From a virus, in IMG/VR virus record IMGVR_UViG_3300048836_001223, positions 1-32,323 of that record: a stretch of DNA of 32,323 bases; one strand, 5' to 3'. The position numbers were made by a program, and so were the translations under genes. This document shows positions 1 to 21,935 of the stretch, one piece after another (the first letter of the stretch is position 1; each line of letters begins with the position of its first letter). Under the pieces are notes generated by a model. It did no database searches, was not told the DNA's origin, and saw only the letters and a list, made by a program, of their open reading frames with translations.

Positions 1-116
1 GGACTTGCTCCTGTTGGCTCACTCTCGTGCACGCTCGGCCACATCCAGATCAGCGCGCCTCTCGGCCGATGATGCCTCAGACAGTACGACACGCTTTGTC
101 GCAACGCATACCCAAA

Positions 117-214
117 CCGAGTGGCAGATGAGGCAGGTCATGTCGATACCCTCCATACCGTGTGCGCGCACACGCGAGGCGTTAACGACATAAACCGCCT
201 CATCTGCCACTCGG
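117..214. repeat. 98-bp nested inverted repeat
   Basis: Outer arms 117-134 and 197-214 are perfect 18-bp inverted copies (left arm CCGAGTGGCAGATGAGGC). A second pair, ATGTCG at 140-145 and CGACAT at 186-191, lies in the same register. The tip is a perfect 16-bp palindrome, CGTGTGCGCGCACACG, at 159-174, centred one base off the outer dyad. The whole could extrude as a cruciform or fold as a long hairpin on one strand. No T-run follows, so it is not a standard terminator. Its function is unknown; candidates are a recombination, replication or partner-protein binding site. Confidence 0.75.
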
Positions 215-564
215 GGGTTGACCGCGCGACAGATGAGTACGAATGCCAAGCCGATTGGGTTCGTGCGGACAATTGCGGGTTGCTGAGGATGATCGGATGA
301 GGATTCCGACGCCTTCGAACTGCTGCAGACGACTGCGGACAACTGCCAAGTCAGCCGGTTTTTCGGCGTGCAACAAATGCCGATAGCGATGGTAGATTTC
401 GATCCATGCTGGCTCTGAACCCCTCGGACGCGGCTCTGGCGAGATGACCCGAGTGGCGATAAAGCCACAGTGGCTTTGACGCCACGCTGCCGGGGCGAAA
501 AGGGGTCCTTCCTGCCGAAAGGTCCATACGGGGGGGACGAGCGCGACGCTTCCCTAGCGTCAGG

Positions 565-603
565 GTGCGAACTGAGGTTCGCACGGTTCGCGCAGTTCGC
601 AGG
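565..603. repeat. Hairpin plus three 9-bp direct repeats (GTTCGC)
   Basis: GTGCGAAC (565-572) and GTTCGCAC (577-584) form a perfect 8-bp hairpin with a 4-base loop. GTTCGC then recurs at 577-582, 586-591 and 595-600, exactly 9 bases apart, so one inverted and three direct half-sites lie in 36 bp. The layout is like a binding array for a DNA-binding protein. It sits about 80 bp before the first methyltransferase gene and just ahead of a terminator, which would suit control of entry into the late operon. The role is inference. Confidence 0.55.
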
Positions 604-630
604 TACGCACCCCACCACCGATTCCACTCC

Positions 631-660
631 ACCCGCCACGGCTTACGTCGGCGGGTTTTT
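631..660 (+). terminator. Intrinsic terminator before the methyltransferase genes
   Basis: ACCCGCC (631-637) pairs with GGCGGGT (650-656); the loop contains a further 3-bp stem (ACG 638-640 with CGT 646-648), and a T-run follows at 656-660. This is a standard rho-independent terminator on the plus strand. It separates the gene-poor left end from the late genes. Transcription from the left must therefore stop here, be antiterminated, or restart between 660 and 683. Confidence 0.75.
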
Positions 661-682
661 CGTTTTCAGGACCCACATCCGC

Positions 683-2083
683 GTGAACCCGCTCCACGTC
701 GAGTACCGCCAGGTCGAGACGCTGATCCCCTACGCCCGCAATCCGCGCACGCACAGCGACGCGCAGATCGCCAAGATCGCGGCCAGCATCGCCGAGTTCG
801 GCTGGACCACGCCGATCCTGGTGGATGCGGTCCAGGGTGTCATCGCGGGCCACGGTCGTTTGGCGGCCGCACGCAAGCTGGGCCTGGCCGACGTGCCGGT
901 GATCGAACTGACCCACCTGTCGCCAGCGCAGAAGCGCGCCTACGTCATCGCCGACAACCGCTTGGCGCTCGACGCCGGTTGGGACGAGGAACTGCTGGCG
1001 CTGGAACTCGCGGACCTCACCGAGGCCGGATTCGATCTCGCGCTGACGGGCTTCGACGATGCCGAACTGCAGTCGCTGCTCACCGATGCCGAGGCCGGCG
1101 ATCCGGAGGAACCCGACGAAGCGCCCGAGGAAGACGACGCGGCCGACGAGGTGCCCGACGCTCCGGTGGTTGCGGTATCGCGCCCGGGCGACGTCTGGCT
1201 GCTCGGCCCGCATCGCCTGATCTGCGGCGACGCCAGCGACCGCGACGTGATCGCTGCGCTGATGCAGGACGACCGGGCGCAGTTGTGCTTCACCTCGCCG
1301 CCCTATGGCAACCAGCGCGACTACACCACCGGCGGCATTGCCGATTGGGATGCGCTGATGCGCGGCGTGTTCGCGCCGCTTCCGATGGCCGACGACGGCC
1401 AGGTCATGGTCAACCTCGGCCTGATCCATCGGGACAACGAGTTCACCCCGTACTGGGATGCCTGGCTCGGCTGGATGCGCACGCAGGGTTGGCGCCGTTT
1501 CGCGTGGTACGTCTGGGACCAGGGCCCGGGTATGCCGGGCGATTGGGCCGGACGGCTCGCGCCGAGCTTCGAGTTCGTGTTCCATTTCAATCGCGAGACC
1601 CGCAAGCCGAACAAGACCGTGCCCTGCAAGTTCGCCGGGCAAGACACCCACCTGCGCGCCGATGGTTCGTCCACCGCATTGCGCGGCAAGGACGGCGACG
1701 TCGGTGGCTGGACCCATGCCGGCCAGCCGACGCAAGACCACCGCATTCCCGACTCGGTGATCCGGGTCATGCGCCACAAGGGCAAGATCGGTGAAGGCAT
1801 TGAGCACCCCGCGGTGTTCCCGGTGGCGCTGCCGCAATTCGTGATCGAGGCCTACTCGGCCGAAGGCGAGATCGTGTTCGAGCCGTTCTGTGGCTCCGGC
1901 ACGACGATCCTGGCCGCGCAGCGCACAGGCCGCATCGCGCGCGCCGTCGAGATCGCGCCGGAGTACGTGGACGTGGCGATCCGCCGCTTCCGCCAGACCT
2001 TTCCGGAGGTGCCGGTGCGCCTTCAGGCCACTGGCGAGAGCTTTGATGCAGAAGCCGCGGCGCGCGCAGGATCTACGGCATGA
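683..2083 (+). CDS. ParB-domain DNA methyltransferase (SPPY type)
   Basis: This 466-aa protein fuses a ParB/Srx-like N-terminal domain (about residues 8-95, with GHGRLAAA and ADNR motifs) through an acidic linker (about 137-160) to a beta-class amino-methyltransferase. The catalytic motif is TSPPYG at 204-209 and the S-adenosylmethionine motif FEPFCGSGTT is at 399-408. SPPY is commonly found in N4-cytosine enzymes, so m4C is the likely product, though family exceptions exist. I chose the GTG at 683 because the ParB homology starts a few codons later and the frame upstream runs through the terminator; an AGGA lies about 11 bases before it. It overlaps the next gene by ATGA. Phages use such enzymes to protect their DNA from host restriction. 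No matching endonuclease is visible, so it looks like an orphan methylase. Confidence 0.88.
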   Translation: MNPLHVEYRQVETLIPYARNPRTHSDAQIAKIAASIAEFGWTTPILVDAVQGVIAGHGRLAAARKLGLADVPVIELTHLSPAQKRAYVIADNRLALDAGWDEELLALELADLTEAGFDLALTGFDDAELQSLLTDAEAGDPEEPDEAPEEDDAADEVPDAPVVAVSRPGDVWLLGPHRLICGDASDRDVIAALMQDDRAQLCFTSPPYGNQRDYTTGGIADWDALMRGVFAPLPMADDGQVMVNLGLIHRDNEFTPYWDAWLGWMRTQGWRRFAWYVWDQGPGMPGDWAGRLAPSFEFVFHFNRETRKPNKTVPCKFAGQDTHLRADGSSTALRGKDGDVGGWTHAGQPTQDHRIPDSVIRVMRHKGKIGEGIEHPAVFPVALPQFVIEAYSAEGEIVFEPFCGSGTTILAAQRTGRIARAVEIAPEYVDVAIRRFRQTFPEVPVRLQATGESFDAEAAARAGSTA

Positions 2084-3321
2084 CGCGCTCCTGGCTGGCC
2101 GAGAAGATCGAGCCCTGGCCGACCGACAAGCTCATCCCCTACGCCCGCAATGCGCGCCAGCACTCGGACGCGCAGGTGGCGCAGATCGCCGCCAGCATCG
2201 CGGAGTTCGGATTCACGAACCCGATCCTCGCTGGCAGCGACGGCGTCATAGTCGCCGGCCACGGTCGTCTCGCCGCGGCGCAGAAGCTGGGACTCGTCAC
2301 GGTGCCGGTGGTCGTGTTGGACCATCTGTCCCCCACGCAGCGCCGCGCGCTGGTGCTGGCCGACAACCGCATCGCTGAGAACGCCAGCTGGGACGAGGAA
2401 CTGCTGCGCGTAGAACTCGCGGACCTGCAGGACGCTGGCTTCGACCTGGACATCACCGGCTTCGACGCCGACGCGCTTGCAGAACTGATGGCCGGCGACG
2501 AGCCCGATGTGTCAGGGCAGACCGATGAAGATGCCGTCCCGGAAGTGTCGGATACGCCGGTGTCCCGCGCCGGCGACATTTGGCAGCTGGGACAGCATCG
2601 CCTTCTGTGCGGCGACGCGACCCTGGCGGCGAGCTACGACGCACTGCTCGGCGAGGAGCGAGTGGCCATGGTGTTCACCGACCCGCCCTACAACGTGAAC
2701 TATGCGAACAGCGCCAAGGACAAGCTGCGTGGAAAGGACCGCGCCATCCTCAACGACAACCTGGGCGGTGGCTTTTCGGACTTCCTGTTGGGGGCGCTGA
2801 CGCCGATGGTCGAGCGCTGCGATGGCGCAATGTATGTGGCCATGTCGTCGAGCGAGTTGGACACGTTGCAGTCGGCCTTCCGCGCGGCTGGCGGCCACTG
2901 GTCGACGTTCATCATCTGGGCCAAGCACACGTTCACGCTCGGCCGCGCCGACTACCAGCGCCAGTACGAGCCGATCCTCTACGGCTGGCCCGAGGGCGCC
3001 GAGCGCCACTGGTGCGGCGACCGCGACCAGAGCGACGTCTGGCAAATCAAGAAACCGCAGAAGAACGATCTGCACCCGACCATGAAGCCGGTCGAACTGG
3101 TCGAGCGCGCGCTGCGCAACAGTTCGCGTCCTGGCGATGTGGTGCTCGACCCATTTGGCGGTTCCGGCACGACGCTGATCGCCGCGGAGAAGTCCGGGCG
3201 CGTCGCGCGGCTGATGGAGTTGGACCCGAAGTACGCCGACGTGATCGTGCGGCGCTGGGAGGACTTCACCGGCAAGAAAGCTATTCGCGAGGCGGCAAAC
3301 CAGGATGCATGCGCCAGTTGA
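2080..3321 (+). CDS. ParB-domain DNA methyltransferase (DPPY type)
   Basis: This 413-aa protein has the same architecture as its neighbour: a ParB-like domain (about residues 18-100, GHGRLAAA, ADNR), a linker, then a beta-class methyltransferase with TDPPYNVNY at 200-208, HPTMKP at 332-337 and DPFGGSGTT at 357-365. DPPY plus the HPTMKP block is typical of N6-adenine methylases, so m6A is likely. The ParB parts of the two proteins are nearly identical in places (both contain LIPYAR and IAASIAEFG), while the catalytic parts differ, which suggests duplication followed by divergence or domain swap. Translation is coupled to the previous gene by ATGA. Its 3' end overlaps by 41 bases the end of the convergent minus-strand gene at 3281-3505. 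Confidence 0.9.
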   Translation: MTRSWLAEKIEPWPTDKLIPYARNARQHSDAQVAQIAASIAEFGFTNPILAGSDGVIVAGHGRLAAAQKLGLVTVPVVVLDHLSPTQRRALVLADNRIAENASWDEELLRVELADLQDAGFDLDITGFDADALAELMAGDEPDVSGQTDEDAVPEVSDTPVSRAGDIWQLGQHRLLCGDATLAASYDALLGEERVAMVFTDPPYNVNYANSAKDKLRGKDRAILNDNLGGGFSDFLLGALTPMVERCDGAMYVAMSSSELDTLQSAFRAAGGHWSTFIIWAKHTFTLGRADYQRQYEPILYGWPEGAERHWCGDRDQSDVWQIKKPQKNDLHPTMKPVELVERALRNSSRPGDVVLDPFGGSGTTLIAAEKSGRVARLMELDPKYADVIVRRWEDFTGKKAIREAANQDACAS

Positions 3322-6162: not shown

Positions 6163-8117
6163 GCGACTCGGTCTACGACGGCGCCGCAGAACTCGAACGC
6201 GCGTGGCGAGAAGGCTTGCTGCCCGATCCCTTGCTCTCGGTATCGGAGTGGTCGGATCGACACCGGATGCTGTCCAGCAAGGCATCGGCAGAACCCGGGC
6301 GCTGGCGCACCAGCCGCACGCCTTACCTGAAAGCGATCATGGACTGCCTGTCGCCGACCTCCGCGGTCGAGCGCGTCGTGTTCATGAAGGCCGCCCAGCT
6401 CGGCGCGACCGAGATGGGCTCGAACTGGATCGGCTACGTCATCCACCACGCGCCCGGACCGATGATGGCGGTGTGGCCGACCGTCGAGATGGCCAAGCGC
6501 AATTCCAAGCAGCGCATCGATCCGCTGATCGAGGAGTCGGGCGTACTGGCCGAGTTGATCGCCCCGGCGCGCTCACGCGACTCCGGCAACACGATCCTGG
6601 CCAAGGAGTTCCGCGGCGGCGTGCTGGTCATGACCGGCGCCAACAGCGCGGTGGGGTTGCGCTCGATGCCGGTGCGGTACCTGTTCCTCGACGAGGTCGA
6701 CGGCTATCCGTTGGACGTCGAGGGCGAAGGCGATGCGATCTCGTTGGCCGAAGCGCGCACTCGCACCTTCGCCCGCCGCAAGATCTTCATCGTCTCGACC
6801 CCGACCATTGCCGGTGCCTCGGCCATTGAGCGCGAGTACGAGGCCAGCGACCAGCGTCGCTACTTCGTGCCCTGTCCGCACTGCTCGCACCGGCAATGGC
6901 TGCGTTTCGAGCAACTGCGCTGGGACAAGGGTGCGCCGGAGACTTCCGCGTACGTCTGCGAGTCCTGCGACACCGCGATTGCCGAGCACCACAAGACCTG
7001 GATGCTCGAACACGGGGAGTGGCGCGCGATGTCAGAGATCCCAGCCAAGACGGCGGGCTTTCACCTGTCATCGCTCTACAGCCCGATCGGCTGGCGCGCC
7101 TGGCGCGACATTGCCGCCGCGTGGGAGGCCGCGGTCAGCAAGGAGTCTGGATCGGCATCGGCGATCAAGACCTTCAAGAACACGGAACTGGGCGAGGCCT
7201 GGGTCGAGGAAGGCGACGCGCCCGACTGGCAGCACCTGGTTGAGCGTCGCGAGGACTACCGAATTGCCACCGTGCCGATCGGTGGCTTGCTCCTGGTGGG
7301 CGGCGCCGACGTGCAGAAAGACCGCATCGAAGCCTCGATCTGGGCCTACGGCCGCGGCAAGGAATGCTGGCTGGTCGAGCACCGCGTGATGATGGGCGAG
7401 ACCCATCACGATGCGGTGTGGAAGCAACTCGCCGATCTGATCGACGAGCGCTGGACCCACGAGAGCGGCGCGCAGATTCCGCTGGCGCGCTTCGCCGTCG
7501 ACTCAGGCTTTGCCACCCAACAGGTCTACGCCTTCGTCCGCGCCCGCAAGGATCCGCGACTGATGGCGGTCAAGGGCGTGGCGCGGGGCGCTGCATTGAT
7601 CGGCACGCCCACCGCGGTCGATATCAGCGTCGGCGGCAAGAAGCTCAAGCGCGGCATCAAGGTGTACGCGGTGGCCACCGGCATCGCCAAGCTCGAGATC
7701 ACGACGTGTCTGAAGAAGTCCGTCGAGACCGACGCGCAGGGCGACGTGGCGTATCCGTCCGGCTACATCCACTTGCCAAAAGTCGACGCTGAGTTCGTCC
7801 AGCAACTCTGTGCCGAGCAGTTGGTCACGCGGCGCGACCGTAACGGCTTTGCGGTCCGCGAGTGGCAGAAGCTGCGCGAACGCAACGAGGCGCTGGACTG
7901 CTTGGTGTACGCGCGCGCTGCTGCCGCTGCGGCAGGTCTCGATCGCTTCGAAGAACGTCACTGGATCGAACTGCAGCGCCAACTCGGCGTCCCGGATCGA
8001 CCGACTGAATCGTCATCCACCGAACTCCCGGTCGCCGATCTGGCCGACCGGGCCGCCGCCGCCACGAAGCGATCGGGCCGACGCCTGATTCGCAGTCGCT
8101 GGCTGGGCGGAAGCTGA
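6159..8117 (+). CDS. Terminase large subunit (GpA family)
   Basis: A 652-aa protein of the phage lambda GpA type, which cuts concatemeric DNA and pumps it into the prohead. Visible features are a deviant Walker A-like segment (KAAQLGATE, about 77-85), a Walker B motif LFLDEVD (175-181), two zinc-binding pairs CPHC (239-242) and CESC (267-270), and a C-terminal part that should hold the nuclease (acidic residues around GGADVQKDRI and RFAVDSGF). The length is normal for the family. GpA terminases usually act at cos sites, so cohesive ends are expected; I could not identify a cos site. Confidence 0.95.
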   Translation: MSDSVYDGAAELERAWREGLLPDPLLSVSEWSDRHRMLSSKASAEPGRWRTSRTPYLKAIMDCLSPTSAVERVVFMKAAQLGATEMGSNWIGYVIHHAPGPMMAVWPTVEMAKRNSKQRIDPLIEESGVLAELIAPARSRDSGNTILAKEFRGGVLVMTGANSAVGLRSMPVRYLFLDEVDGYPLDVEGEGDAISLAEARTRTFARRKIFIVSTPTIAGASAIEREYEASDQRRYFVPCPHCSHRQWLRFEQLRWDKGAPETSAYVCESCDTAIAEHHKTWMLEHGEWRAMSEIPAKTAGFHLSSLYSPIGWRAWRDIAAAWEAAVSKESGSASAIKTFKNTELGEAWVEEGDAPDWQHLVERREDYRIATVPIGGLLLVGGADVQKDRIEASIWAYGRGKECWLVEHRVMMGETHHDAVWKQLADLIDERWTHESGAQIPLARFAVDSGFATQQVYAFVRARKDPRLMAVKGVARGAALIGTPTAVDISVGGKKLKRGIKVYAVATGIAKLEITTCLKKSVETDAQGDVAYPSGYIHLPKVDAEFVQQLCAEQLVTRRDRNGFAVREWQKLRERNEALDCLVYARAAAAAAGLDRFEERHWIELQRQLGVPDRPTESSSTELPVADLADRAAAATKRSGRRLIRSRWLGGS

Positions 8118-8157
8118 GCCGGATCGTCAATCCCACACCACAGGACTACCAACACCC

Positions 8158-8664
8158 ATGTCGCTCGTCTCCCGTATCGAATCCCTGATTCTCCGACTCG
8201 CCGCCGAGTTCAAGGCCATCCGCCGCGATCTCGGCAATCCCACCGAACTCACCACACGCGACCAGTCGAACCTGGTCGCCGCGATCAACGAAGTCCGCGC
8301 GCTGATCGATGTCACGCCGGGTTTGAACATCATCGACGACGAGAACCCGAACGCCGCCAGCACCACCTTCTCCGCGTCCGGCATCGTCCGCCGCCTCGAC
8401 CAGCTCAAGGCTGACATCCTGGGCGGTGCTGATGGCGCCTTCGACACGCTGAAGGAACTCCAGGATGCGCTGGCCAGCGACGCCTCCGGCATTGCTGCGC
8501 TGACCCGTGCGCTGGAGTCGCGTGTGCGCTTCGACGAGCCGCAGGACCTGACGGTCGACTCGCAGGCGCAGGCCCGCCAGAACATCGGCGCGGTCTCCGC
8601 CGAGGCGATCGGCGACACGGAGGTCGATCTCGTCGTGGTGTTCCGCGACGCGCTGGCGGCCTGA
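8158..8664 (+). CDS. Tail-fibre-like coiled-coil protein
   Basis: A 168-aa protein. Segments such as LTTRDQSNLVAAINEVRALI, RRLDQLKADILGG and LTVDSQAQARQNIGAVSAEA are of the kind found in the shafts of phage tail fibres. Yet the gene sits between large terminase and gpW, inside the head module. Its N-terminus (MSLVSRIESLILRLAAEFKA) resembles that of the next gene product (MSLVRNIASLATRIALELKA), so the two share a leader helix. Only a weak AGGA precedes the ATG. It could be a head fibre, a decoration protein or a displaced tail-fibre fragment. Confidence 0.6.
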   Translation: MSLVSRIESLILRLAAEFKAIRRDLGNPTELTTRDQSNLVAAINEVRALIDVTPGLNIIDDENPNAASTTFSASGIVRRLDQLKADILGGADGAFDTLKELQDALASDASGIAALTRALESRVRFDEPQDLTVDSQAQARQNIGAVSAEAIGDTEVDLVVVFRDALAA

Positions 8665-8668
8665 GCCG

Positions 8669-9112
8669 ATGAGCCTCGTTCGCAACATCGCGAGTCTGGC
8701 CACGCGGATTGCGCTCGAGCTCAAGGCTGCTCGCCAGCGGATCGGCGCCCTCGAAGGGCGCCTTCCGCCGGGTGAGACCGTGGTCACGCCGGGACATCCC
8801 GGCGTGACCAAGGCCTGGGCGTGCTTCGCCACGCAAGCGCAGGTGGCTGTGCTTCGATCCGGCTTCAACATCGCACGGGTCGAACGCCAGGGCGTCGGGC
8901 GCTATCGGGTGCATTTCCAGACGGCAATGGCCAACGCGGACTACTGCTGGCAGGCATTTGCGCGCAACAGCGGGCAGCAGACGTCGATCAAGCTGGCCAT
9001 CGCCCGAGTCCGCGGGGATGCCAAGACGGCGCAATCGCTCGAACTGTCGGTGGTCACCACCAGCGGCACACCGGTGGATTCGGCGGAAGTGAACATTGTG
9101 GTGTACGCCTGA
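8669..9112 (+). CDS. Fibre-type beta-domain protein
   Basis: A 147-aa protein with an N-terminal helix like that of its neighbour, a short proline/glycine linker, and a C-terminal beta domain (about 48-147: VTKAWACFAT, RSGFNIARVE, YRVHFQTAMANADYCW). That domain matches the pattern found at the distal end of many phage fibres and lectin-like tips (KAW-V-F, SFN-, G-Y-V-F-AM-NA-Y). It could bind a surface sugar or protein. The stop overlaps the gpW start (TGATG). The place in the head module suggests a capsid-borne fibre; this is inference. Confidence 0.65.
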   Translation: MSLVRNIASLATRIALELKAARQRIGALEGRLPPGETVVTPGHPGVTKAWACFATQAQVAVLRSGFNIARVERQGVGRYRVHFQTAMANADYCWQAFARNSGQQTSIKLAIARVRGDAKTAQSLELSVVTTSGTPVDSAEVNIVVYA

Positions 9113-9333
9113 TGGCCTACACCGAAGCCCACCTCGCCGCGCTGGAGCAGGCCCTCGCGCGCGGCGAGAGTCGCGTGCGGTTCGAGGACAAGATGGTCGA
9201 GTACCGCTCGGTCGAGGAGCTGAAGTCGGCGATCCGCGAGGTCAAGCGCGGATTGTTTGAGCAGGCGCGTGACAGCGGGTTGTGGCCGGGAGCGCCCCGG
9301 CAGATCCGCGTGACGACCAGCAAGGGGCTGTGA
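9112..9333 (+). CDS. Head-tail joining protein gpW
   Basis: A 73-aa protein, close to the 68 residues of lambda gpW. The pattern AYTEAHLAALEQALARGE, a beta hairpin (RVRFEDKMVEYRS) and a helix (VEELKSAIREVKRG) is that of the GpW family, which plugs the portal after DNA packaging and forms the platform for tail attachment. The ATG at 9112 overlaps the previous stop, and its own stop overlaps the portal start (TGATG), so three genes are coupled. Confidence 0.85.
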   Translation: MAYTEAHLAALEQALARGESRVRFEDKMVEYRSVEELKSAIREVKRGLFEQARDSGLWPGAPRQIRVTTSKGL

Positions 9334-10820
9334 TGGCGCGCCCATCCCGCGGCTGGTTCGCCAGCGTCGCGCAAACCACCCGCAAGTGGCTCGGACTTCC
9401 CGTGCATGACGCGGCTGGCCGGGGTCGACGCTCGCTGGCTTGGTCTCCCGGCAACCCGGGCGCCGTGGCCGCGATGCTGGCGACGCAGACCGAGTTGCGC
9501 GCCAAGAGTCGCGACATCGCACGGCGCAATGCCTGGGCCAATGCTGCGCTGGAGTCCTATGTGTCGAACGCGATCGGCACCGGTATCAAGCCGCAGTCGA
9601 TGGTGGCCGATCAGGCGCAGCGCGAGGCTATCCATCGCTTGTGGTCCGCGTGGGTCGCCGAAGCCGATGCCGCAGGGCTCACTGACTTCTACGGGCTGCA
9701 AGCACTCGCGTGCCGGGCAATGCTCGAAGGCGGCGAGTGTCTGATTCGACTGCGTCCACGGCGACCGGAAGACGGCCTGGTCGTAGGCCTGCAACTGCAA
9801 CTGCTCGAACCCGAACATCTGCCGGTGACGTTGAACACGAGCACCGCGACTGGGAACACCATTCGTGCGGGCATCGAGTTCGATACGCTCGGGCGCCGCG
9901 TGGCTTATCACCTCTACCGCCAGCATCCGGAAGACGGTGCGCTGGCGCCAATGTCGACCAGCAGCGGCTCGGAGACCGTGCGCGTCCCGGCGAACGAGAT
10001 CGTGCATCTGTTCCGTCCGCTGCGTCCGGGGCAGATCCGTGGCGAGCCCTGGCTCGCCCGCGCGTTGGTCAAGCTCAATGAGCTGGATCAGTACGACGAT
10101 GCCGAACTGGTCCGCAAGAAGACGGCGGCGATGTTCGCCGGGTTTATCACGCGCGTGCAGCCCGAGGACCCGTTGATCGGCGAAGGCTTGCCGGATGCGA
10201 ACGGCATCGCGCTCGCGGGTCTGGAGCCGGGGACGATGCAGATCCTGGAGGCCGGCGAGGACATCAAGTTCAGCCAGCCCGCAGACGTCGGCGCGAGCTA
10301 CGCCGAGTTCCTGCGCATGCAGTTCCGCGCGGTGGCAGCGGCGATGGGCGTGACCTACGAGCAACTCACCGGGGATCTGACCCAGGTGAACTACAGCTCG
10401 ATTCGGGCCGGGCTGCTGGAGTTTCGGCGCCGAGTTGAGGCGATCCAGCATGGGGTCATCGTGCAGCAGATGTGTCGCCCGATCTGGAAGGCCTGGATGA
10501 CCCAGGTCGTATTGGAAGGGTCATTGCCGATTGCTGACTACACGCGCCGCCAGCGCGAAGTGCAGGCGGCGAAATGGATCCCGCAAGGCTGGCAGTGGGT
10601 GGATCCGCAGAAAGAGTTCAATGCGGTGAAGACCGCGATTCGTGGCGGGCTGCTCAGCCGCTCCGAAGCGATCAGCGCCTTCGGCTACGACGCTGAAGAC
10701 ATCGATCGCGAGATCGCTGCCGACAACCAGCGCGCGGATCAACTCGGCTTGGTGCTCGACACCGATCCGCGTCGCGACCCCGAGCGTTTGTCCGACGTCA
10801 CCCAGACCCCAGGCGCCTGA
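9333..10820 (+). CDS. Portal protein (lambda gpB family)
   Basis: A 495-aa protein of the lambda-type portal family. It has the arginine-rich start, the RDIARRNAWANAALESYVSN segment, a WSAWVAEADAAGLTDFYGL motif, a long beta-rich core, and the C-terminal AAAMGVTYEQLTGDLTQVNYSS motif that is diagnostic of these portals. Twelve copies form the ring at one capsid vertex through which DNA passes. I start at ATG 9333, which overlaps the gpW stop. The length is typical. Confidence 0.95.
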   Translation: MARPSRGWFASVAQTTRKWLGLPVHDAAGRGRRSLAWSPGNPGAVAAMLATQTELRAKSRDIARRNAWANAALESYVSNAIGTGIKPQSMVADQAQREAIHRLWSAWVAEADAAGLTDFYGLQALACRAMLEGGECLIRLRPRRPEDGLVVGLQLQLLEPEHLPVTLNTSTATGNTIRAGIEFDTLGRRVAYHLYRQHPEDGALAPMSTSSGSETVRVPANEIVHLFRPLRPGQIRGEPWLARALVKLNELDQYDDAELVRKKTAAMFAGFITRVQPEDPLIGEGLPDANGIALAGLEPGTMQILEAGEDIKFSQPADVGASYAEFLRMQFRAVAAAMGVTYEQLTGDLTQVNYSSIRAGLLEFRRRVEAIQHGVIVQQMCRPIWKAWMTQVVLEGSLPIADYTRRQREVQAAKWIPQGWQWVDPQKEFNAVKTAIRGGLLSRSEAISAFGYDAEDIDREIAADNQRADQLGLVLDTDPRRDPERLSDVTQTPGA

Positions 10821-10824
10821 ACCC

Positions 10825-12159
10825 ATGTTCCTTCCCCATCTGGCGAGCCGATTGATCGGCACGCCACTGCTGCTCGCGCGCGCCAAACTCGATGTCCTGC
10901 TGGCCGTGCTCGGCGAACGCGTTGGCGCACCACAGGTCAGCGTGGCGGCATTCGAGCCGGTCATCGCGCCGAGTGTGCGCACGCAAGCGTCGATCGCCGT
11001 GATCCCGGCATTCGGCACGCTGGTCCGGCGCACCAACGGACTGGAGGCGGCGTCCGGTCTGACCAGCTATTCCGAACTCGCTGCGCGACTTCAGGCCGCG
11101 TCCGTGGATACGGGCGTCCGCGGCGTGCTGCTCGAGATCGACTCGCCCGGCGGTGAAGCGGGCGGCGTGTTCGAACTGGCCGAGCAGGTGCGCACGCTGG
11201 CGCAGCTCAAGCCGGTCTGGGCCGTGGCCGTCGACTCCGCGCTGTCGGCGGCCTACGCGATTGCAGCCGCCGCCAATCGGGTCGTGGTGACGCGCACCGC
11301 AGGCGTTGGCTCGATCGGCGTCATCGCCATGCACATCGATCAGTCCGCTCGGGATGTGCAACAGGGCTATCGCTACACGCCGGTTCTCGCCGGCGCGCAC
11401 AAGGCCGATCTCTCGCCCCACGCGGTGCTGGCGCCTGAAGCACTCACTCGGTTGCAGCGCGAGGTGGATCGGCTCTACGACCTGTTCGTCGACCACGTTG
11501 CCCTGATGCGCGGGCTCGACAGCGATGCCATCCGCGCTACCGAGGCCGCTTTGTACTTCGCCGAAGACGCGGTGCACGCCGGCCTGGCCGACGCGGTCGG
11601 CGGTTTCGACGACACGCTGGCCGAGTTCGCCCAGTTCCTTTCGCACCCCAAGCCCGTCAGCAGGCTGGGGCACCACGCCGCACTGCTGACCCCCACCCCC
11701 ACGATCAAGGACATCACCATGTCGACCGTACCCAACGACATTCCCTTTCCGAACAAGCCGGCTCAGCCCGTCTCCGCGCCCGAAGGATCGGAGCCCATCG
11801 ACGTTCCCGATGAGGACACCGAGAAGGTCGAGGTGGCGCCGGCTACCGCCTCTGCGCCTGCCACACCGACTGCCGCGGCCCAAGTCACTCGCAGCTTCGC
11901 CGACGCCCGTCTGATCGTCGAGATGTGCGCGCTCGCCGGTCGCGCCGACCGCGCGCTCGGCTTCCTCGATGCCAACGCCGGTGTCGACCAGGTGCGCCGA
12001 ACCCTGCTGTCAGAACTCGCGGCAGGCCCCGAGATCGGTTCGCTATTGCCGCCGATCGGTCATCGTGCGAGCGCCACGCCTTCGGATCCCGCATCGGCAG
12101 CCGCCTCGCCCACCCACAACCCCGTACTCGCCGCAGTCGCCAAACTGCGCAAAGGCTGA
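10825..12159 (+). CDS. Capsid protease-scaffold (S49, lambda gpC-like)
   Basis: A 444-aa protein. The first 290 residues are an S49/SppA-type serine protease: an SPGG oxyanion motif at 107-110, the likely nucleophile Ser141 in DSALSAAYA, and the likely general base Lys193 in AGAHKADLS. The C-terminal third (from about 299) is low-complexity, proline/alanine-rich and then helical, as expected for a scaffold. This matches lambda gpC, which carries the Nu3 scaffold as its C-terminus. The protease trims prohead proteins and is lost during maturation. It starts 4 bases after the portal stop. Confidence 0.9.
   Translation: MFLPHLASRLIGTPLLLARAKLDVLLAVLGERVGAPQVSVAAFEPVIAPSVRTQASIAVIPAFGTLVRRTNGLEAASGLTSYSELAARLQAASVDTGVRGVLLEIDSPGGEAGGVFELAEQVRTLAQLKPVWAVAVDSALSAAYAIAAAANRVVVTRTAGVGSIGVIAMHIDQSARDVQQGYRYTPVLAGAHKADLSPHAVLAPEALTRLQREVDRLYDLFVDHVALMRGLDSDAIRATEAALYFAEDAVHAGLADAVGGFDDTLAEFAQFLSHPKPVSRLGHHAALLTPTPTIKDITMSTVPNDIPFPNKPAQPVSAPEGSEPIDVPDEDTEKVEVAPATASAPATPTAAAQVTRSFADARLIVEMCALAGRADRALGFLDANAGVDQVRRTLLSELAAGPEIGSLLPPIGHRASATPSDPASAAASPTHNPVLAAVAKLRKG
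11719..12159 (+). CDS. Nested scaffolding protein (Nu3-like)
   Basis: An in-frame internal start within the protease gene. ATG 11719 is preceded by AAGGA at 11706-11710 with 8 bases between, a good Shine-Dalgarno. The product would be 146 aa, starting MSTVPNDIPF, with an acidic disordered part and a helical C-terminal part. This is the arrangement of lambda C/Nu3, where the scaffold is made both fused to and separate from the protease. Inferred from layout and ribosome binding site. Confidence 0.65.
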   Translation: MSTVPNDIPFPNKPAQPVSAPEGSEPIDVPDEDTEKVEVAPATASAPATPTAAAQVTRSFADARLIVEMCALAGRADRALGFLDANAGVDQVRRTLLSELAAGPEIGSLLPPIGHRASATPSDPASAAASPTHNPVLAAVAKLRKG

Positions 12160-12162
12160 TCC

Positions 12163-12534
12163 ATGCCCGCCATTCTCGAAAACCAGAACCTGGGCGATCT
12201 GCTCAAGTTCGAAGCGCCGCAGTTGTACTCGCGCGACACGGTCACGGTGGCCGCCGGATCCAACCTGCGCCTCGGTGCAATCGTCGCGTTCACCCCGACC
12301 GGGACCATCAAGGCCGTGGCGCCCGCCGCCAGCGACAGCACCAAAGTCGCGGTCGGCGTGCTCATCGTCGATGCCGATGCCACCCTGGCCGAGCGGAGCG
12401 CGCTGATGGTCTGCCGCCACGCGATCGTGTCCGATCGCGCGCTGCAGTGGCCAGCCGCTATCACCCTCGAACAGAAGGCCACGGCGGTCGCGCAATTGCG
12501 AGCGCTCGGCGTACTGGTCCGCACTGGAGTCTGA
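12163..12534 (+). CDS. Head decoration protein (lambda gpD-like)
   Basis: A 123-aa protein of the bacteriophage lambda head decoration family, which binds the expanded capsid at the threefold sites and stabilises it against DNA pressure. The order protease-scaffold, decoration, major capsid supports the call. The segment LYSRDTVTVAAGSNLRLGAIVA, followed by TGVL-like beta strands, fits the family. A good ribosome binding site (AAAGG) precedes the ATG. It lies 3 bases after the protease stop. Confidence 0.88.
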   Translation: MPAILENQNLGDLLKFEAPQLYSRDTVTVAAGSNLRLGAIVAFTPTGTIKAVAPAASDSTKVAVGVLIVDADATLAERSALMVCRHAIVSDRALQWPAAITLEQKATAVAQLRALGVLVRTGV

Positions 12535-12535
12535 G

Positions 12536-13537
12536 ATGCAGAACCCCTTTCACAACCCCGCGTTCTCCATGGCCAACCTCACGGCCGCCATCAACCAGAT
12601 CCCGAATCGCTACGGCAAGCTGGAAGCCCTGCGGCTGATGCCGGAGAAGTCGGTGCGCTTTCGCCAGGTGCTGGTCGAGGAGCGTAACGGCGTCCTGGCG
12701 CTATTGCCGACGCTGCCGCCCGGCTCACCGGGCACCGTGGGCGTGCGCGGCAAGCGCAAGATGCGCTCGTTCGTCGTGCCGCACATTCCCCACGATGACG
12801 TGGTGCTACCCGAGGAGGTCAACGGCATCCGCGGCTTCGGGTCGGAGACCGAACTGGAGACCGTCGCCAACGTGATCGCGCAGCACCTGGAGACCATGCG
12901 CAGCAAGCATGCGATCACGCTGGAGCATCTGCGCATGGGCGCCTTGAAGGGCGTGATCCTGGATGCCGATGGGTCGGAGCTGTACGACCTCTACGCCGAG
13001 TTCGACATCACGCCCAAGGTGATCAGCTTCGCGCTCACCACGCCGACCACCAACATCAAGGCCAAGTGCGCCGATGTGCTACGCCACATCGAGGACAGCC
13101 TGCGTGGCGAGATCATGACCGGCGCCCACGTGCTCTGCAGCCCCGAGTTCTTCGACGCCTTCACGGGCCATGACAAGGTCCAGAAGGCCTTCGAGAACTG
13201 GCAGCAGGGTGCAGGACTGGTGCAGGACCTGCGCTCCGGCTTCACCTTCGGCGGGCTGACCTTCGAGGAGTACCGTGGTCAGGCCACCGACGTCGAGGGC
13301 CGCACGCGCCGCTTCATCGCCGCCGGCGAAGCGCACTGCTTCCCGCTGGGCACGGTCGACACCTTCGCAACCTACGTGGCACCGGCCGATTTCAACGAGA
13401 CGGTGAACACGCTCGGCCAGCCGCTCTACGCGAAGCAGGAGCCGCGCAAGTTCGAGCGCGGGACCGATCTGCACACGCAGAGCAATCCGCTGCCGATGTG
13501 TCACCGGCCGGGCGTGCTGGTGAAGCTGACCGCATGA
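12536..13537 (+). CDS. Major capsid protein (gpE family)
   Basis: A 333-aa protein of the lambda gpE (Phage_cap_E) family; the length is near the 341 residues of lambda gpE. Recognisable stretches are FSMANLTAAINQIPNRYG near the start, the RSFVVPHIPHDDVVLPEEVNG segment, and a C-terminal region with EAHCFPLGTVDTF and HTQSNPLP motifs. It forms the icosahedral shell with the HK97 fold. The start follows the previous stop by one base, and the stop overlaps the next start (ATGA). Confidence 0.95.
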   Translation: MQNPFHNPAFSMANLTAAINQIPNRYGKLEALRLMPEKSVRFRQVLVEERNGVLALLPTLPPGSPGTVGVRGKRKMRSFVVPHIPHDDVVLPEEVNGIRGFGSETELETVANVIAQHLETMRSKHAITLEHLRMGALKGVILDADGSELYDLYAEFDITPKVISFALTTPTTNIKAKCADVLRHIEDSLRGEIMTGAHVLCSPEFFDAFTGHDKVQKAFENWQQGAGLVQDLRSGFTFGGLTFEEYRGQATDVEGRTRRFIAAGEAHCFPLGTVDTFATYVAPADFNETVNTLGQPLYAKQEPRKFERGTDLHTQSNPLPMCHRPGVLVKLTA

Positions 13538-13857
13538 ACGAGCTCACGCCACCGCTGGATCTGGTTGGTCGCGTTTACGAGTCCGCCGCCAATGCGGGTC
13601 TGCTGAAGCGCTGCACCTGGCTACGCAACCCGCCCGACATGCCGTTGGTCCACCACGTCGGCTTGCGCGCGCCCGATGACTCGATTCTCGAGAACTTGAG
13701 TCGCAGCAAGGAGACCACCATCAGCTACCCGTGCACGATCTTCCTCGGCCTCAAGGCTGGCGAGACCGTGGAACTGGAAGGCCAGCGCTACCAGGTGCGC
13801 GAGATCCGAGCAGTCGGCGACGGCGCCGAACTGCGCACCAAGCTGACGCGCCTGTGA
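13534..13857 (+). CDS. Head-tail joining protein
   Basis: A 107-aa beta-rich protein starting MNELTPPLDL and coupled to the capsid gene by ATGA. The pattern (SRSKETTISYPCTIFLGL, then GETVELEGQRYQVREIRAVGDG) suits a compact beta-barrel such as lambda gpFII or the related head-completion proteins. The position right after the major capsid gene and before a tail terminator candidate supports a role at the head-tail joint. The exact family is not certain. Confidence 0.65.
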   Translation: MNELTPPLDLVGRVYESAANAGLLKRCTWLRNPPDMPLVHHVGLRAPDDSILENLSRSKETTISYPCTIFLGLKAGETVELEGQRYQVREIRAVGDGAELRTKLTRL

Positions 13858-13863
13858 TCCGCT

Positions 13864-14304
13864 GTGAACTCGATCCGCGAGCAGATCCTGCAGCGCCTGG
13901 CGGGCGTGCTCGGGGTGGTGGCCGCCGCGCATAACGCCAGCGTGCATCGATCACCCACCGTGGCCATCGAGCGCGAGCACTGTCCGGCGCTGGTGCTGTT
14001 TCCGGAAGCCGATCAAATCACTGAGCGAGCCAACGATCGGGTGACACGCGAACTCACGGTCCGCATCACCGCACTGGCCAGGGCGATTCCGCCGCAGGTC
14101 GCCGAGACGGAGGCGGACGAACTCCTCACCGCTGCGCATGCGGCGGTGATGGTCGACATGAACCTGGCCGGCCTGGCGCTCGGAATCCGGGAAGTCGACG
14201 CTGAGTTCGACATCGAAGACGCCGACGCCACCGCGGCGGCCATTCCGCAGCGCTACCGCATCACCTACCGAACGCTCGCTGCCGATCTCTCGCGGCTCGG
14301 CTGA
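13864..14304 (+). CDS. Tail terminator candidate
   Basis: A 146-aa protein with a GTG start at 13864. It has an N-terminal helix (IREQILQRLAGVLGVV), a central strand-rich part, TVRITALAR, and a helix with acidic residues (ETEADELLTAAHAAVMVD), ending in YRITYRTLAADLSRLG. The alternation of strands and helices and the final RY-I-YRT are typical of tail terminator or tail completion proteins of the gpU type, which cap the tail tube and join it to the head. The call rests mainly on position and general pattern. Confidence 0.6.
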   Translation: MNSIREQILQRLAGVLGVVAAAHNASVHRSPTVAIEREHCPALVLFPEADQITERANDRVTRELTVRITALARAIPPQVAETEADELLTAAHAAVMVDMNLAGLALGIREVDAEFDIEDADATAAAIPQRYRITYRTLAADLSRLG

Positions 14305-14361
14305 GCCACCCACCTTGAACCTCAACAATCCATCGGCACCACGCCGATGGCAGGAGTCCTC

Positions 14362-15132
14362 ATGTCCACTTATGCCTCATTCCAGGGCCGCGTCTACCTC
14401 GGCCGGCGCGACGCGGCCGGCAACCCCATCGAAGTGCGCTCGCCCGGCAACGTCGCCGAACTCAAGTTGTCGCTGAAGACCGATGTGCTCGAGCACTTCG
14501 AATCGCAGACCGGCCAGCGCACGCTCGATCACCGCATGGTCAAGCAGAAGTCCGCGACGATCATGCTGACCATCGAAGAGTTCACCAAAGAGAACCTGTC
14601 GCTGGCGCTTTACGGCAACCACATCGACACGCAGAGCGGCACCGTGCAGGTCGAGCCGATCGGCGCGCCGTTGGCCGTCGGTCATCGCTACCTGCTGGCC
14701 CATCCCAAGGTGTCGACCTTGGTGCTGAAAGACAGCGCGACGCCGGCGAAGACGCTGGTACTCGGCACGGACTACACCGCGGATCTCGACTTCGGCGCGG
14801 TCCAACTGCTGCGGCTGGATGATGGCGCCGCGACGCCCACACCGTTCACGGCGCCGCTGAAGGCCAGCTACGGGTTCGGCGTGACCACCGAGATCGGCAT
14901 CTTCACCCAGCCGCTGCCCGAGCGCTTCCTGCGGCTGGAAGGCCTCAACACCGCGCAGGGCAACGCCAAGGTGCTGGTTGAGCTCTATCGAGTGGCGTTC
15001 GATCCGCTGAAGGAGCTGAACCTGATCTCCGACGAATACAACAAGTTCGAACTCGAGGGCTCGCTGCTGGCGGACAACACCAAGCCGCTGGACGCGGTGC
15101 TGGGGCAGTTCGGCAAAATCGTTCAACTGTAG
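14362..15132 (+). CDS. Major tail tube protein
   Basis: A 256-aa protein starting MSTYASFQGRVYLG. I prefer ATG 14362, which has AGGAG upstream, over ATG 14347, which lies in that ribosome binding site. The pattern (FQGRVYLGRRD, ELKLSLKTDVLEHFES, then a long beta-rich body and KFELEGSLLAD near the end) is that of tail tube proteins of non-contractile phages. It sits immediately before the tail chaperones, as in lambda. No sheath gene is present, so the tail should be of the siphovirus type. Confidence 0.85.
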   Translation: MSTYASFQGRVYLGRRDAAGNPIEVRSPGNVAELKLSLKTDVLEHFESQTGQRTLDHRMVKQKSATIMLTIEEFTKENLSLALYGNHIDTQSGTVQVEPIGAPLAVGHRYLLAHPKVSTLVLKDSATPAKTLVLGTDYTADLDFGAVQLLRLDDGAATPTPFTAPLKASYGFGVTTEIGIFTQPLPERFLRLEGLNTAQGNAKVLVELYRVAFDPLKELNLISDEYNKFELEGSLLADNTKPLDAVLGQFGKIVQL

Positions 15133-15140
15133 GCCCGACC

Positions 15141-15554
15141 ATGAGCACACCAACCGATGAACTTGAACGACTGATCCCGCAGGGCACCAAGGTGTCGGTG
15201 GCCAGCGATACGGTCATCCTCCATCCGCTCAAGGTAGGGCAGTTGCCGGCGATGCTGCGCGCGGTCGGCGGCCTCGCCGGTCACCTGCAGCGCGATCCGA
15301 TCGACTGGCTGCAACTGCTCGCCGAGCACGGCGATGCGCTGCTCGATGCGGTGGCCATCGGCAGCGGAAAGACCCGCGCATGGGTCGACGGACTGGCGCC
15401 CGACGATGCCTTGCTGCTGGCGGCAAAGGTGGTCGAGGTCAACGCGGATTTTTTCGCGCGTCGGGTGATCCCGCGGATCGAGACACTGTTCGACAGCGCC
15501 AGGACCCTCGCGGCAGCCAGCGGGGCCACTGGTTCGACGCCGCCCAGCGCCTGA
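15141..15554 (+). CDS. Tail assembly chaperone (gpG-like)
   Basis: A 137-aa protein between the tail tube and tape measure genes, the place of lambda gene G, whose 140-aa product coats the tape measure during tail assembly. The sequence is acidic and helical (DWLQLLAEHGDALLDAVAIG, DDALLLAAKVVEVNADFFA). Codons 104-105 form the slippery heptamer TTTTTTC (15449-15455), allowing a -1 shift into the next frame (see 15141-15751). Without shifting, translation ends at 15552-15554. Confidence 0.75.
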   Translation: MSTPTDELERLIPQGTKVSVASDTVILHPLKVGQLPAMLRAVGGLAGHLQRDPIDWLQLLAEHGDALLDAVAIGSGKTRAWVDGLAPDDALLLAAKVVEVNADFFARRVIPRIETLFDSARTLAAASGATGSTPPSA

Positions 15555-15751
15555 TCGCGCACGGGCATGGCCTCGATACGGTGCTGCAGATGACGCTTGG
15601 CCAGATGCGCGGGTTTCTACGGGCGATTGATCGGGCGGAGGCCACGCGCGAGTTGCGCATACTGAATCTCGTTCTCCTCGGTACCCGTGGCGAGTCCAAG
15701 GCCATCGAACGGCTGGAGGACACGCTACGCAAGCAGGCCGACTTGGGCTGA
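15141..15751 (+). CDS. Frameshifted tail chaperone (gpGT-like)
   Basis: A -1 shift at T-TTT-TTC (15449-15455) would join the first 105 residues of the chaperone to 98 residues in the next frame, giving a 203-aa fusion that ends at 15749-15751. The second frame contains a good helical region (FDAAQRLIAHGHGLDTVLQ, MTLGQMRGFLRAIDRAEA) and has no start codon with a ribosome binding site. In lambda the G/GT frameshift fusion is needed to assemble the tail, and the shift direction is also -1. The segment just after the slip is arginine-rich and less natural, so the precise site is uncertain. Confidence 0.6.
15449..15455 (+). other. Candidate -1 slippery heptamer T-TTT-TTC
   Basis: Six T residues then C, in phase as X-XXY-YYZ with the upstream frame (codons TTT and TTC). 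It is the only canonical slippery heptamer I found in the overlap of the two tail chaperone frames. I did not establish a downstream stimulatory hairpin. Confidence 0.55.
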
Positions 15752-15754
15752 CCC

Positions 15755-16399
15755 ATGCGCATCAGGATCAAACTCGATAGCGCCGCGGCCAGCGCCAAGT
15801 TGAGGAAATGGGGCGGCGAGCTACGCGAGAAGGCGCGCAAGGCGGTCGGTACCGCCATGCGTGCCGAGGCTCCGGCGATTAAAGCCGAGGTTCAGAGCCA
15901 CGTCGCAAACAAGCTCAAGGTCGTGCGTCGCTCCTTCCCGCGCAGCTTTACGGCCAAGGTCATCGACCGGGACACGCGCCGCTTGCCAGCGCTGCACATC
16001 GGCGCGCGCATCCCATGGATCGGCATCCACGAGTCCGGCGGCACCATCCAGGGCAAGCTGCTGATCCCACTCTACGCGCGCGTCGGCCGCAAAGCCTTCA
16101 AAGCGCACGTCACCGCTCTGATGCGCGGCGGCAACGCCTACTTTGTTCGCAGCGCACGAGGAAACCTGGTGCTGATGGCCGAGAACCAGCGCGAGTACGA
16201 CCGCACGCTCGCGCCGTACAAACGCCGTCATCGACGCGCGACAGGCGGCGGGCGACTCAAGCGCGGCGCCGACGTGCCAATCGCCGTGCTGGTGCCGCGG
16301 GTGACGATCAAGAAGCGGCTGGATGTGTATGCGGTGATCGCGAGGCAGGTGCCGGCGATGTCGGCGGCGATCGAGAGGGAACTGGGCCGGCTTGGCTGA
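15755..16399 (+). CDS. DUF6441-like tail assembly protein
   Basis: A 214-aa basic protein between the tail chaperones and tape measure. Its layout (an N-terminal helical region, RIPWIGIHESGGTIQGKLLIPLYARVGRKAF, then FVRSARGNLVLMAENQ and a C-terminal helix) matches what I recall of the DUF6441 phage family. A role in tail or neck assembly is likely from position; the molecular function is unknown. The ribosome binding site is weak, and it begins three bases after the GT stop. The toxin-antitoxin-like cassette on the minus strand follows it. Confidence 0.65.
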   Translation: MRIRIKLDSAAASAKLRKWGGELREKARKAVGTAMRAEAPAIKAEVQSHVANKLKVVRRSFPRSFTAKVIDRDTRRLPALHIGARIPWIGIHESGGTIQGKLLIPLYARVGRKAFKAHVTALMRGGNAYFVRSARGNLVLMAENQREYDRTLAPYKRRHRRATGGGRLKRGADVPIAVLVPRVTIKKRLDVYAVIARQVPAMSAAIERELGRLG

Positions 16400-16438
16400 A
16401 TTGTTCGATCTCGCACGCCGACGCGCTCGATCGAAACA

Positions 16439-16882
16439 CTACGCCGCCGCGCTGGAAGCCCAACCGAGGCACGCCAGCCATACCGTCTTCGGGATCGGTT
16501 TGGCGCCCGAGAGATAGTAGTTGAGCATGCGCCGCGAAATGCCGATGGCATCGGCCGCGCGCGCTTGGGTCAGCCCGTGTTGCGCCATCCAGTTGAGCAG
16601 ACGTTCGTGGCCGATGCCACCTGCCTGCTCGACCGCGATATTGCGCAGGTTGTCGGCGGCGATCTCCAGATCATCCGGCACCCACACCACGTAGCCGCCC
16701 CGTACGTCGACTCGCGCACCGGCGAAAACGGCTGGGTCGGACAGCGCTACGAGCGCTGGGTGAGTTCGAATGACTGCGGCCAGGTCAACCTCGAAGACCT
16801 CGCCATCAGCGAAGCGCAGCCGCAGGCCATTCGGCCCGGTCACGCTAGTCTCGACAATGGTGTGCTGCGGGTCGTGAATCAT
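16439..16882 (-). CDS. DUF2442-HTH protein, putative antitoxin
   Basis: A 147-aa protein. Residues about 10-85 are a DUF2442 domain (LRLRFADGEVFEVDLAAVI, then VVWVPDDLEIAADNL); residues about 90-140 are an XRE-type helix-turn-helix (LNWMAQHGLTQARAADAIG, SRRMLNYYLSG). I chose ATG 16882, which overlaps the stop of the DUF4160 gene as ATGA, so the two are translated together. DUF4160 and DUF2442 genes often occur as neighbours and have been proposed as toxin-antitoxin pairs; here the HTH would let this protein repress the pair by binding the palindrome at 17120-17138. That role is inference. Confidence 0.75.
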   Translation of the reverse strand: MIHDPQHTIVETSVTGPNGLRLRFADGEVFEVDLAAVIRTHPALVALSDPAVFAGARVDVRGGYVVWVPDDLEIAADNLRNIAVEQAGGIGHERLLNWMAQHGLTQARAADAIGISRRMLNYYLSGAKPIPKTVWLACLGWASSAAA

Positions 16883-17109
16883 GGGTTGCACTCCTCAAAC
16901 ACCTTGCGGGCGGCCTCTCGGTTCTCAGCGATCCAAGCCAGCGCCTCAGTGATCTCGGCGAAGCGCACCGTGCGGCTCACCACTTCCAATGTGTCGAGGT
17001 ACACCAGCGCGTCCCGGCGGTCTGCCAGCACGATGTGGACATGGGCCGGGCGATGGTCCGGCACGTTCACCCGGATGGTCATGCTCGCAAGGCGATGGAT
17101 CGTTGGCAT
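16879..17109 (-). CDS. DUF4160 protein, putative toxin
   Basis: A 76-aa protein starting MPTIHRL, the usual start of DUF4160 proteins, with the family's DH-PAHVHI motif (VNVPDHRPAHVHIVLADRR). ATG 17109 is preceded by AGAGG on the minus strand; codons further upstream would run through the operator palindrome and are rejected. It is the first gene of a two-gene unit with the DUF2442-HTH gene. The histidines of PAHVHI could be catalytic or metal-binding, but the family's activity is not established to my knowledge. Confidence 0.75.
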   Translation of the reverse strand: MPTIHRLASMTIRVNVPDHRPAHVHIVLADRRDALVYLDTLEVVSRTVRFAEITEALAWIAENREAARKVFEECNP

Positions 17110-17119
17110 GCCTCTAGTA

Positions 17120-17138
17120 TTGTGCAATGGTTGCACAA
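17120..17138 (-). promoter_or_regulatory. Perfect 19-bp operator-like palindrome
   Basis: TTGTGCAATGGTTGCACAA has two perfect 8-bp half-sites around TGG. It ends 10 bases before the start codon of the DUF4160 gene (17109) and overlaps the likely promoter. Another half-site-like TTGCAC lies at 17152-17157 on the minus strand. Autorepression by the DUF2442-HTH protein is the natural reading. Confidence 0.7.
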
Positions 17139-17250
17139 AAGCAAGGGCAAGGTGCAATCGAAGTTACGAGACGTCGCCGAAGATCCAATAAGAGACCCGT
17201 TTACACCCATTCACGCCGATACCCAGCGTTCCTCCCAAGCCGACTAGCTC

Positions 17251-21231: not shown

Positions 21232-21263
21232 CTGTATGCGGAAGGCAGACGTAGCCCAAACGA

Positions 21264-21530
21264 TCATGCCGCCAATTTGACCGTTACCGGCAGCTTCAAC
21301 TTGGCGCACAGACCCAGCAGGTAGTCGACGGAAACCTTCTCGACTCGGTTCTTCAGAATCTCGTTCAAGCGCGGCGCGCTGATGCCAAGACGTTCAGCGG
21401 CGGCAGCCTGCGTCAAGCCGGAACGGGCATGCCACTTGCGAAGTTTTCCGGCCAGTTCACAACGCATCAGCATGACCACGGCCTCGTGTTCGGGGAAACC
21501 GAGTTCCAGGAATACGTTCTGCTTGGTCAT
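21264..21530 (-). CDS. higA: HigA-like antitoxin (XRE family)
   Basis: An 88-aa protein with an XRE helix-turn-helix (KWHARSGLTQAAAAERLGI, SAPRLNEILKNRVEKVSV) preceded by a short helical part. It overlaps the stop of the toxin gene as ATGA and lies second, the gene order of HigBA systems (toxin first). It would neutralise the toxin and, with it, repress the shared promoter. Located directly after the tape measure gene in the opposite direction. Confidence 0.85.
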   Translation of the reverse strand: MTKQNVFLELGFPEHEAVVMLMRCELAGKLRKWHARSGLTQAAAAERLGISAPRLNEILKNRVEKVSVDYLLGLCAKLKLPVTVKLAA

Positions 21531-21850: not shown

Positions 21851-21863
21851 CAGTGACCCGATC

Positions 21864-21879
21864 TTACTACTATTCGTAA
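21864..21879 (-). promoter_or_regulatory. Imperfect palindrome upstream of higBA-like pair
   Basis: TTACTACTATTCGTAA has two half-sites matching at 6 of 8 positions and ends 13 bases before the toxin start codon. The AT-rich block stands out in this GC-rich window and probably contains the promoter's -10 region. An operator for the toxin-antitoxin complex is likely, but I could not settle the -10 and -35 boxes. Confidence 0.4.
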
Positions 21880-21935
21880 TGAAAGCTTAGCGCCCGACGC
21901 TTTCGATAGCAACCAAGAACCCCTACATCGAAACT

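Follow-up and report, generated by a model that had tools for sequence, protein, structure and literature searches.

What is the function of a large palindrome that lies near the left end of a 32,323-nt viral sequence (IMG/VR record IMGVR_UViG_3300048836_001223, positions 1 to 32,323; in the following designated the window) and which, according to a preliminary description, is not explained by any gene present there? For the window itself this statement holds, and the gene linked to the palindrome, which codes for a primase-helicase, is located beyond the left edge. From the comparison with related phages we consider it probable that the palindrome is used as the origin of replication by a temperate phage which is AcaML1-like and has a serine integrase.

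The element is composed of nested inverted repeats (Table 1). The preliminary description had listed perfect 18-bp arms, an inner 6-bp pair in the same register and a near-symmetric site of 98 bp, all of which were confirmed: the arms are located at 117-134 and 197-214, and the inner pair ATGTCG/CGACAT is located at 140-145/186-191 in the register of the arms. The 16 bp of the tip (159-174, CGTGTGCGCGCACACG) form a perfect palindrome, as had been claimed, but the tip is not co-axial with the arms, since its centre at position 166.5 lies 1 bp off the arm centre at 165.5. Symmetric pairing occurs at 35 of 49 positions, which makes the element the top 98-bp symmetric site of the window, whereas the best sites in five first-order Markov sequences of equal length reached just 27-29. 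The folding z values for the two strands are -9.6 and -10.1, with none of 200 shuffles being equally good, and the palindrome ranks first among the inverted repeats of the whole window. The core (149-182, 34 nt) has a GC content of 71% and is devoid of an obvious AT-rich melting region. A structured RNA was rejected on the basis of Rfam searches with both strands, which gave no match above the gathering score and just sub-threshold matches to animal miRNAs, and a terminator was rejected because the palindrome is not followed by a T run; terminator-like sites (stem plus T run) were absent from window positions 1-1500. A transposon end, MITE or REP element was rejected because each genome has just one full copy, whose position in the phage is fixed; one relative (G004) contains one extra half copy beside the full palindrome.

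Table 1 Features at the left end of the window
Feature	Position	Strand	Remarks
End of variable cargo region (most likely)	1..116		Unrelated in every sister copy
Palindrome, proposed replication origin	117..214		98-bp iteron type; minus-strand homology to family of ~125 members
Left-arm iterons, 2 x 9 bp: TGGCAGATG AGGCAGGTC	122..139	+	Period-9 repeat within arm
Inner inverted repeat, left half ATGTCGATA	140..148		Family consensus GTCGTAACTC / GAGTTTCGAC
GC core, purine/pyrimidine-alternating	159..174		Contains perfect 16-bp palindrome
Inner inverted repeat, right half TAACGACAT	183..191		Family alignment
Right-arm iterons, 2 x 9 bp: TGGCAGATG AGGCGGTTT	192..209	read on minus	Period-9 repeat within arm
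Non-coding stretch between palindrome and ParB-methyltransferase	215..480		Conserved within lineage
First ParB-methyltransferase fusion gene, start of late module	470..2083	+	phrog_498 / phrog_620
Second ParB-methyltransferase gene	2080..3321	+	Paralogous and adjacent to first

It had been suggested to look for the site in related phages, and this proved informative at two levels. Within the window's own lineage, a search of genome and viral collections with the arm sequence identified five independent relatives in which the palindrome and both its arms are present with an unchanged arm spacing of 94 bp, namely a viral contig, three Lysobacterales MAGs and one MAG labelled Xanthomonas; a distant DNA search of phage and plasmid collections with the left end of the window yielded chance-level matches only. 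Homology to the window sets in with the first palindrome bases and continues into the late genes, and the left side differs in each relative. Conservation within the lineage is 95-99% for the palindrome, 24-29% for the left flank and 74-79% for the right flank (per 20 nt, 0.24-0.29 left of base 100 and 0.95-0.99 in the palindrome), and the perfect 16-bp tip is missing from four of the five sister copies. In four of the five relatives, an early module encoding a serine integrase, an AAA protein, a helicase, a P4/D5 primase, a RuvC-like resolvase and a RinA-like protein is followed by a variable region of ~4-11 kb and then by the palindrome; the Xanthomonas-labelled MAG (G003) has a different arrangement left of the palindrome. 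Serine integrase genes are present in the prophages, one of which is embedded in a 283-kb chromosomal contig.

The variable regions contain defence-type genes, including AbiEii, a PRTase-CE/ORC-CDC6-like set, a NACHT-TPR protein, a kinase-TPR protein with an ECF sigma factor and Beta protein. Because a variable defence-type region lies left of the palindrome in the relatives, positions 1-116 of the window are most likely the terminal part of a cargo region of this kind and not host DNA. A host-phage junction (att) was first suspected at this place, since homology ends at base 116, but this was rejected, as the left side of the relatives consists of phage early genes and variable cargo and the serine recombinase integrase sits at the opposite end of the early module. 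An integron attC-like cassette end was also rejected, because repeated copies are lacking and the palindrome is missing at the other border of the cargo.

Some additional observations concern the cargo and its surroundings. The stretch from the RinA-like gene to the palindrome is a hotspot for defence cargo that differs in each relative (12248-23292 in G002 (L134/L135), 8052-16031 in G001 (L128), 5373-9875 in L130 (G004 C76) and 8627-14281 in L133 (G005 C20)); the Beta protein is accompanied by HTH and IrrE. The cargo slot is short in the second phages of these MAGs (10072-11240 in L131 (G005 C34), 158-400 in L132 (G004 C136)); it contains a ParE/HigA-like toxin-antitoxin set in one of them and is almost empty in the other. 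A 40-bp half palindrome joined to an AbiE cassette is present at 10070-11973 of L129 (G004 C4, from 73001) and also at ~1500 of L125; this cassette is 84% identical to the palindrome-side cassette of G002 and lies near a tRNA-Arg gene in a Lysobacterales MAG, and the break is located within the palindrome. The integrase of G002 (L134:1618-2970) resembles the SCCmec recombinase CcrB with 134 bits, which is below the cutoff, and is adjoined by a DUF2924 gene. On the other side of the palindrome, the true start of the first ParB-methyltransferase is probably near 684, and a cluster of GTTCGCA-type repeats is located directly upstream of this gene at 568-605; repeats of this type also occur, in altered form, in relatives where no palindrome lies at this position (G005 C34, G004 C136).

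Beyond the lineage, 80 viral loci were retrieved with the ParB-methyltransferase as query, and in these loci related palindromes were found 1.0-3 kb upstream of this gene. Gene calls placed them between a gene for a ~760-aa primase and a RuvC-like gene, where a palindrome of ~90-107 bp is the sole palindrome in a gap of 126-222 nt and occupies the space from the primase stop codon to the next ribosome-binding site. The consensus of 59 distinct aligned sequences reads TGACGSANN TGACGSA, GTCGTAACTC, an alternating CG-rich tract, GAGTTTCGAC and mirrored iterons, and the profile derived from this alignment detects the element in every locus with this gap. A second, independent search with the primase of the lineage gave 76 further loci, and in all 71 of these that are outside the lineage the element is located ~30-150 nt from the end of the primase gene. 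The family comprises ~125 contigs of AcaML1-like serine-integrase phages (62 gap sequences plus the 71 further loci, minus eight contigs shared by name), 63 of which, contributed by the primase search, were outside the building of the model; the palindrome is present in all ~125 non-lineage contigs that extend over the 3' terminus of the P4/D5 primase gene into the region downstream of it, with one palindrome per phage genome. The alternation of purines and pyrimidines is kept in the family (median run of 21 versus 7 in background 100-mers), but the perfect symmetry of the tip is not, the longest central palindrome measuring 6-16 bp and lying mostly off-axis.

In the window's lineage the position of the element is exceptional. 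In five members of the lineage the primase-RuvC gap is 19 nt long and has no palindrome, which instead is found 4-11 kb downstream of the primase gene at the border of the variable defence-gene locus and inverted relative to the family, the sister copies scoring 56-60 bits with the profile on the minus strand versus 32-38 bits on the plus strand. Because the primase-adjacent position is so widely distributed, we infer that the palindrome left this ancestral place in the window's lineage; both the direction and the cause of the move are read from that distribution.

Each arm of the palindromes in the family contains two 9-bp iterons. Within the arms, identity at a period of 9 is 72%, compared to 14-24% at other periods (63 distinct arm pairs), and several bases are invariant across these pairs, which is more than a hairpin alone would need. 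Among 99 primases, the distance between iterons is correlated with that between primase C-termini (partial r 0.47, with 0 of 500 permutations as high) but not with that between the RuvC proteins, which are encoded equally close (partial r 0.03), phylogeny being ignored in both cases. Since the spacers between the iterons covary with the primase C-terminus as well (0.50) and the test ignores phylogeny, hitchhiking may contribute to this covariation. The covariation peak corresponds to residues 714-754 of the lineage's primase, which cover the helix-turn-helix and the wing of the modelled C-terminal domain (pLDDT 86). This domain was modelled alone because the model of the full-length primase was poor (pLDDT 57), and its best matches in the PDB are RFX winged-helix domains, followed by the primase-helicase of ASFV. 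The primase also matches TIGR01613 ('phage/plasmid primase, P4 family') with 331 bits and the SaPI5 primase-helicase structure 7ola with an E value of 1.2e-6. The primase gene being located outside the window record, the results on D5_N, TIGR01613 and the winged helix were obtained with the sister phage G002.

A natural exchange of the helicase is found in ten phages of the group (L186, L199, L204, L205, L214, L215, L217 and L224-L226), in which the N-terminus of the primase is kept and the helicase half is different (AAA_25 instead of D5_N in the one that was scanned). These phages have kept RuvC and are devoid of the palindrome, and the same gap contains, upstream of RuvC, several TTGCCAAC/GTTGGCAA repeats followed by a conserved CTCCCCCTCCTACTACGTAGGAGAGGG inverted repeat. 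The TTGCCAAC/GTTGGCAA array is a candidate for a second origin type.

The origins of SaPI and SCCmec elements lie directly downstream of the gene for a primase-helicase of the P4/D5 type and contain iterons that are bound by its C-terminal domain (PMC7581432), which is one reason to regard the palindrome as an origin. The others are the 9-bp direct repeats with invariant bases in the arms, the loss of the palindrome where the helicase half has been replaced and RuvC kept, the covariation of the iterons with the primase C-terminus and not with RuvC, and the single copy per genome, which has been kept to 95-99% in the lineage after relocation. Of the functions considered in the preliminary description, that of a cruciform-forming replication site is thus the one favoured by the comparative evidence. 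We infer from these comparisons that the P4/D5-family primase-helicase would use its C-terminal winged helix to bind the two 9-bp iterons of each arm; owing to the mirrored arms, two assemblies would be directed towards the core, where the DNA would be opened, and the same protein would then unwind and prime. In the window's lineage, with the origin displaced and inverted at the right border of the cargo, the primase would have to act from a distance. Counting against an origin are this distance of 4-11 kb and the GC content of 71% in the centre, and in Cch2 direct repeats and not inverted repeats are needed for binding (PMC7581432). The GC skew has no clear turn at the palindrome and is confounded by the orientation of the cargo genes.

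On this comparative evidence the element would belong, as a palindromic form, to the iteron origins known for primase-helicases of the P4/D5 type; the copy in the window departs from this class in lying away from the primase gene. As in SaPI and SCCmec elements (SaPI5 Rep and Cch2, which are self-loading Rep helicases), an iteron site is located, in the relatives outside the lineage, directly 3' of a gene for a helicase of the D5_N/Primase_Cterm family, and the C-terminal domain, a reader of double-stranded DNA in those systems (PMC7581432), is predicted to have this role here. In contrast to them, there is one near-perfect palindrome of ~100 bp with a GC-rich alternating core, which is displaced and inverted in the lineage. 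An AT-rich melting region between or beside the iterons is typical for SaPI origins; it is missing here, but is not treated as obligatory for the wider class. Satellite phage P4 has ori and crr with short repeated binding sites for its alpha protein, and a P4-family primase-helicase (TIGR01613) and short repeated sites are likewise found here; unlike in P4, there is one site per genome with another iteron sequence, and a second, crr-like iteron cluster was not found in the genomes scanned. The annotated Acidithiobacillus phage AcaML1, with the same primase as the lineage (62%), has the family palindrome in the primase-RuvC gap (13713-13806), in contrast to the window thus in the ancestral place and with three left-arm iterons; its record has no origin annotation. 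In Wolbachia phage WO the RuvC-like gene is found as well, together with genes for a DNA methylase and a terminase of the lambda type in a comparable order, but its record has a gene named RepA and others upstream of RuvC. In the open literature, to which the search was confined, no paper on the palindrome or on AcaML1 replication was found, and a palindromic origin in the AcaML1-like phage group is apparently undescribed there.

Alternatively, the palindrome could be a cruciform substrate of the neighbouring RuvC-like resolvase, whose nicked or hairpin ends start replication or resolve concatemers. Such cruciform cutting has been proposed for poxvirus telomeres, and the near-perfect symmetry, the proximity of the RuvC-like gene in nearly all relatives and the co-occurrence of a D5-type helicase and a RuvC-type resolvase agree with this function. 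We nevertheless regard it as unlikely, as the helicase-swapped phages retain RuvC and lose the palindrome, the iterons do not covary with RuvC, variation and imperfect symmetry are seen in the inner part and at the tip, and a structure-specific nuclease would require neither invariant bases nor period-9 repeats. An equally unlikely combination of both functions is an origin that works via an extruded cruciform: the D5-type helicase would act on the mirrored iterons, the alternating core would drive extrusion, and cutting of the junction by the RuvC-like enzyme would start or finish replication.

A regulatory operator or late promoter element, at which a RinA-like or ParB-like protein bound to the inverted iterons controls the downstream operon, is quite improbable. 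It is suggested by the location upstream of the late module in the window's lineage, with the RinA-like gene and the ParB-methyltransferases nearby, but in the relatives the palindrome separates primase and RuvC within the early operon, far from the late genes, and it is lost upon replacement of the helicase although the RinA-like and ParB genes stay. In addition, a search revealed no sigma-70 promoter-like site.

Still less probable is a recombination site or breakage hotspot for the exchange of defence cargo, with the homology edge at 116-117 representing the crossover. All sister copies diverge at the outer edge of the palindrome, and the half palindrome with the same AbiE cassette near a tRNA gene in a Lysobacterales MAG would fit such a site; however, the palindrome of the other ~125 phages lies between conserved genes with no cargo alongside, no palindrome is present at the far cargo border, and a sharp edge would be equally expected if the origin were the first essential site past the cargo.

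The preliminary description compared the long palindrome with its central alternating GCGCGC to the resolution sites of protelomerase phages. The long palindrome and its alternating GC centre would agree with the telomere-resolution site of a linear plasmid prophage, and N15-type telRL sites are nested palindromes with a CG-alternating centre, but this function can practically be dismissed: PF16684 was not detected in any of nine genomes or records (the window record, which is a fragment, the genomes of five relatives and three further phage records) in a search whose control genome set gave a positive result, the tip is shifted by 1 bp relative to the arm axis and lacks conservation, and the prophages have serine integrases, one of these prophages lying inside the 283-kb chromosomal contig.

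For this widespread group of temperate phages, the replication origin proposed here is testable, since there are a defined site of ~100 bp, a candidate for the initiator and, with residues 714-754 of the lineage's primase, candidates for the recognition of the site. The phages with and without the exchanged helicase half provide natural swap pairs for the choice of origin by primase-helicases of the D5/P4 family, the kin of poxvirus D5 and ASFV C962R. The palindromic, GC-alternating form contrasts with the AT-rich iteron origins that are usually described, and in the window's lineage the proposed origin has been displaced so that it borders a defence-gene locus. Should the origin indeed work via a cruciform, it would be a phage version of the poxvirus arrangement of palindrome, D5 and RuvC, and this would explain its inversion and mobility.
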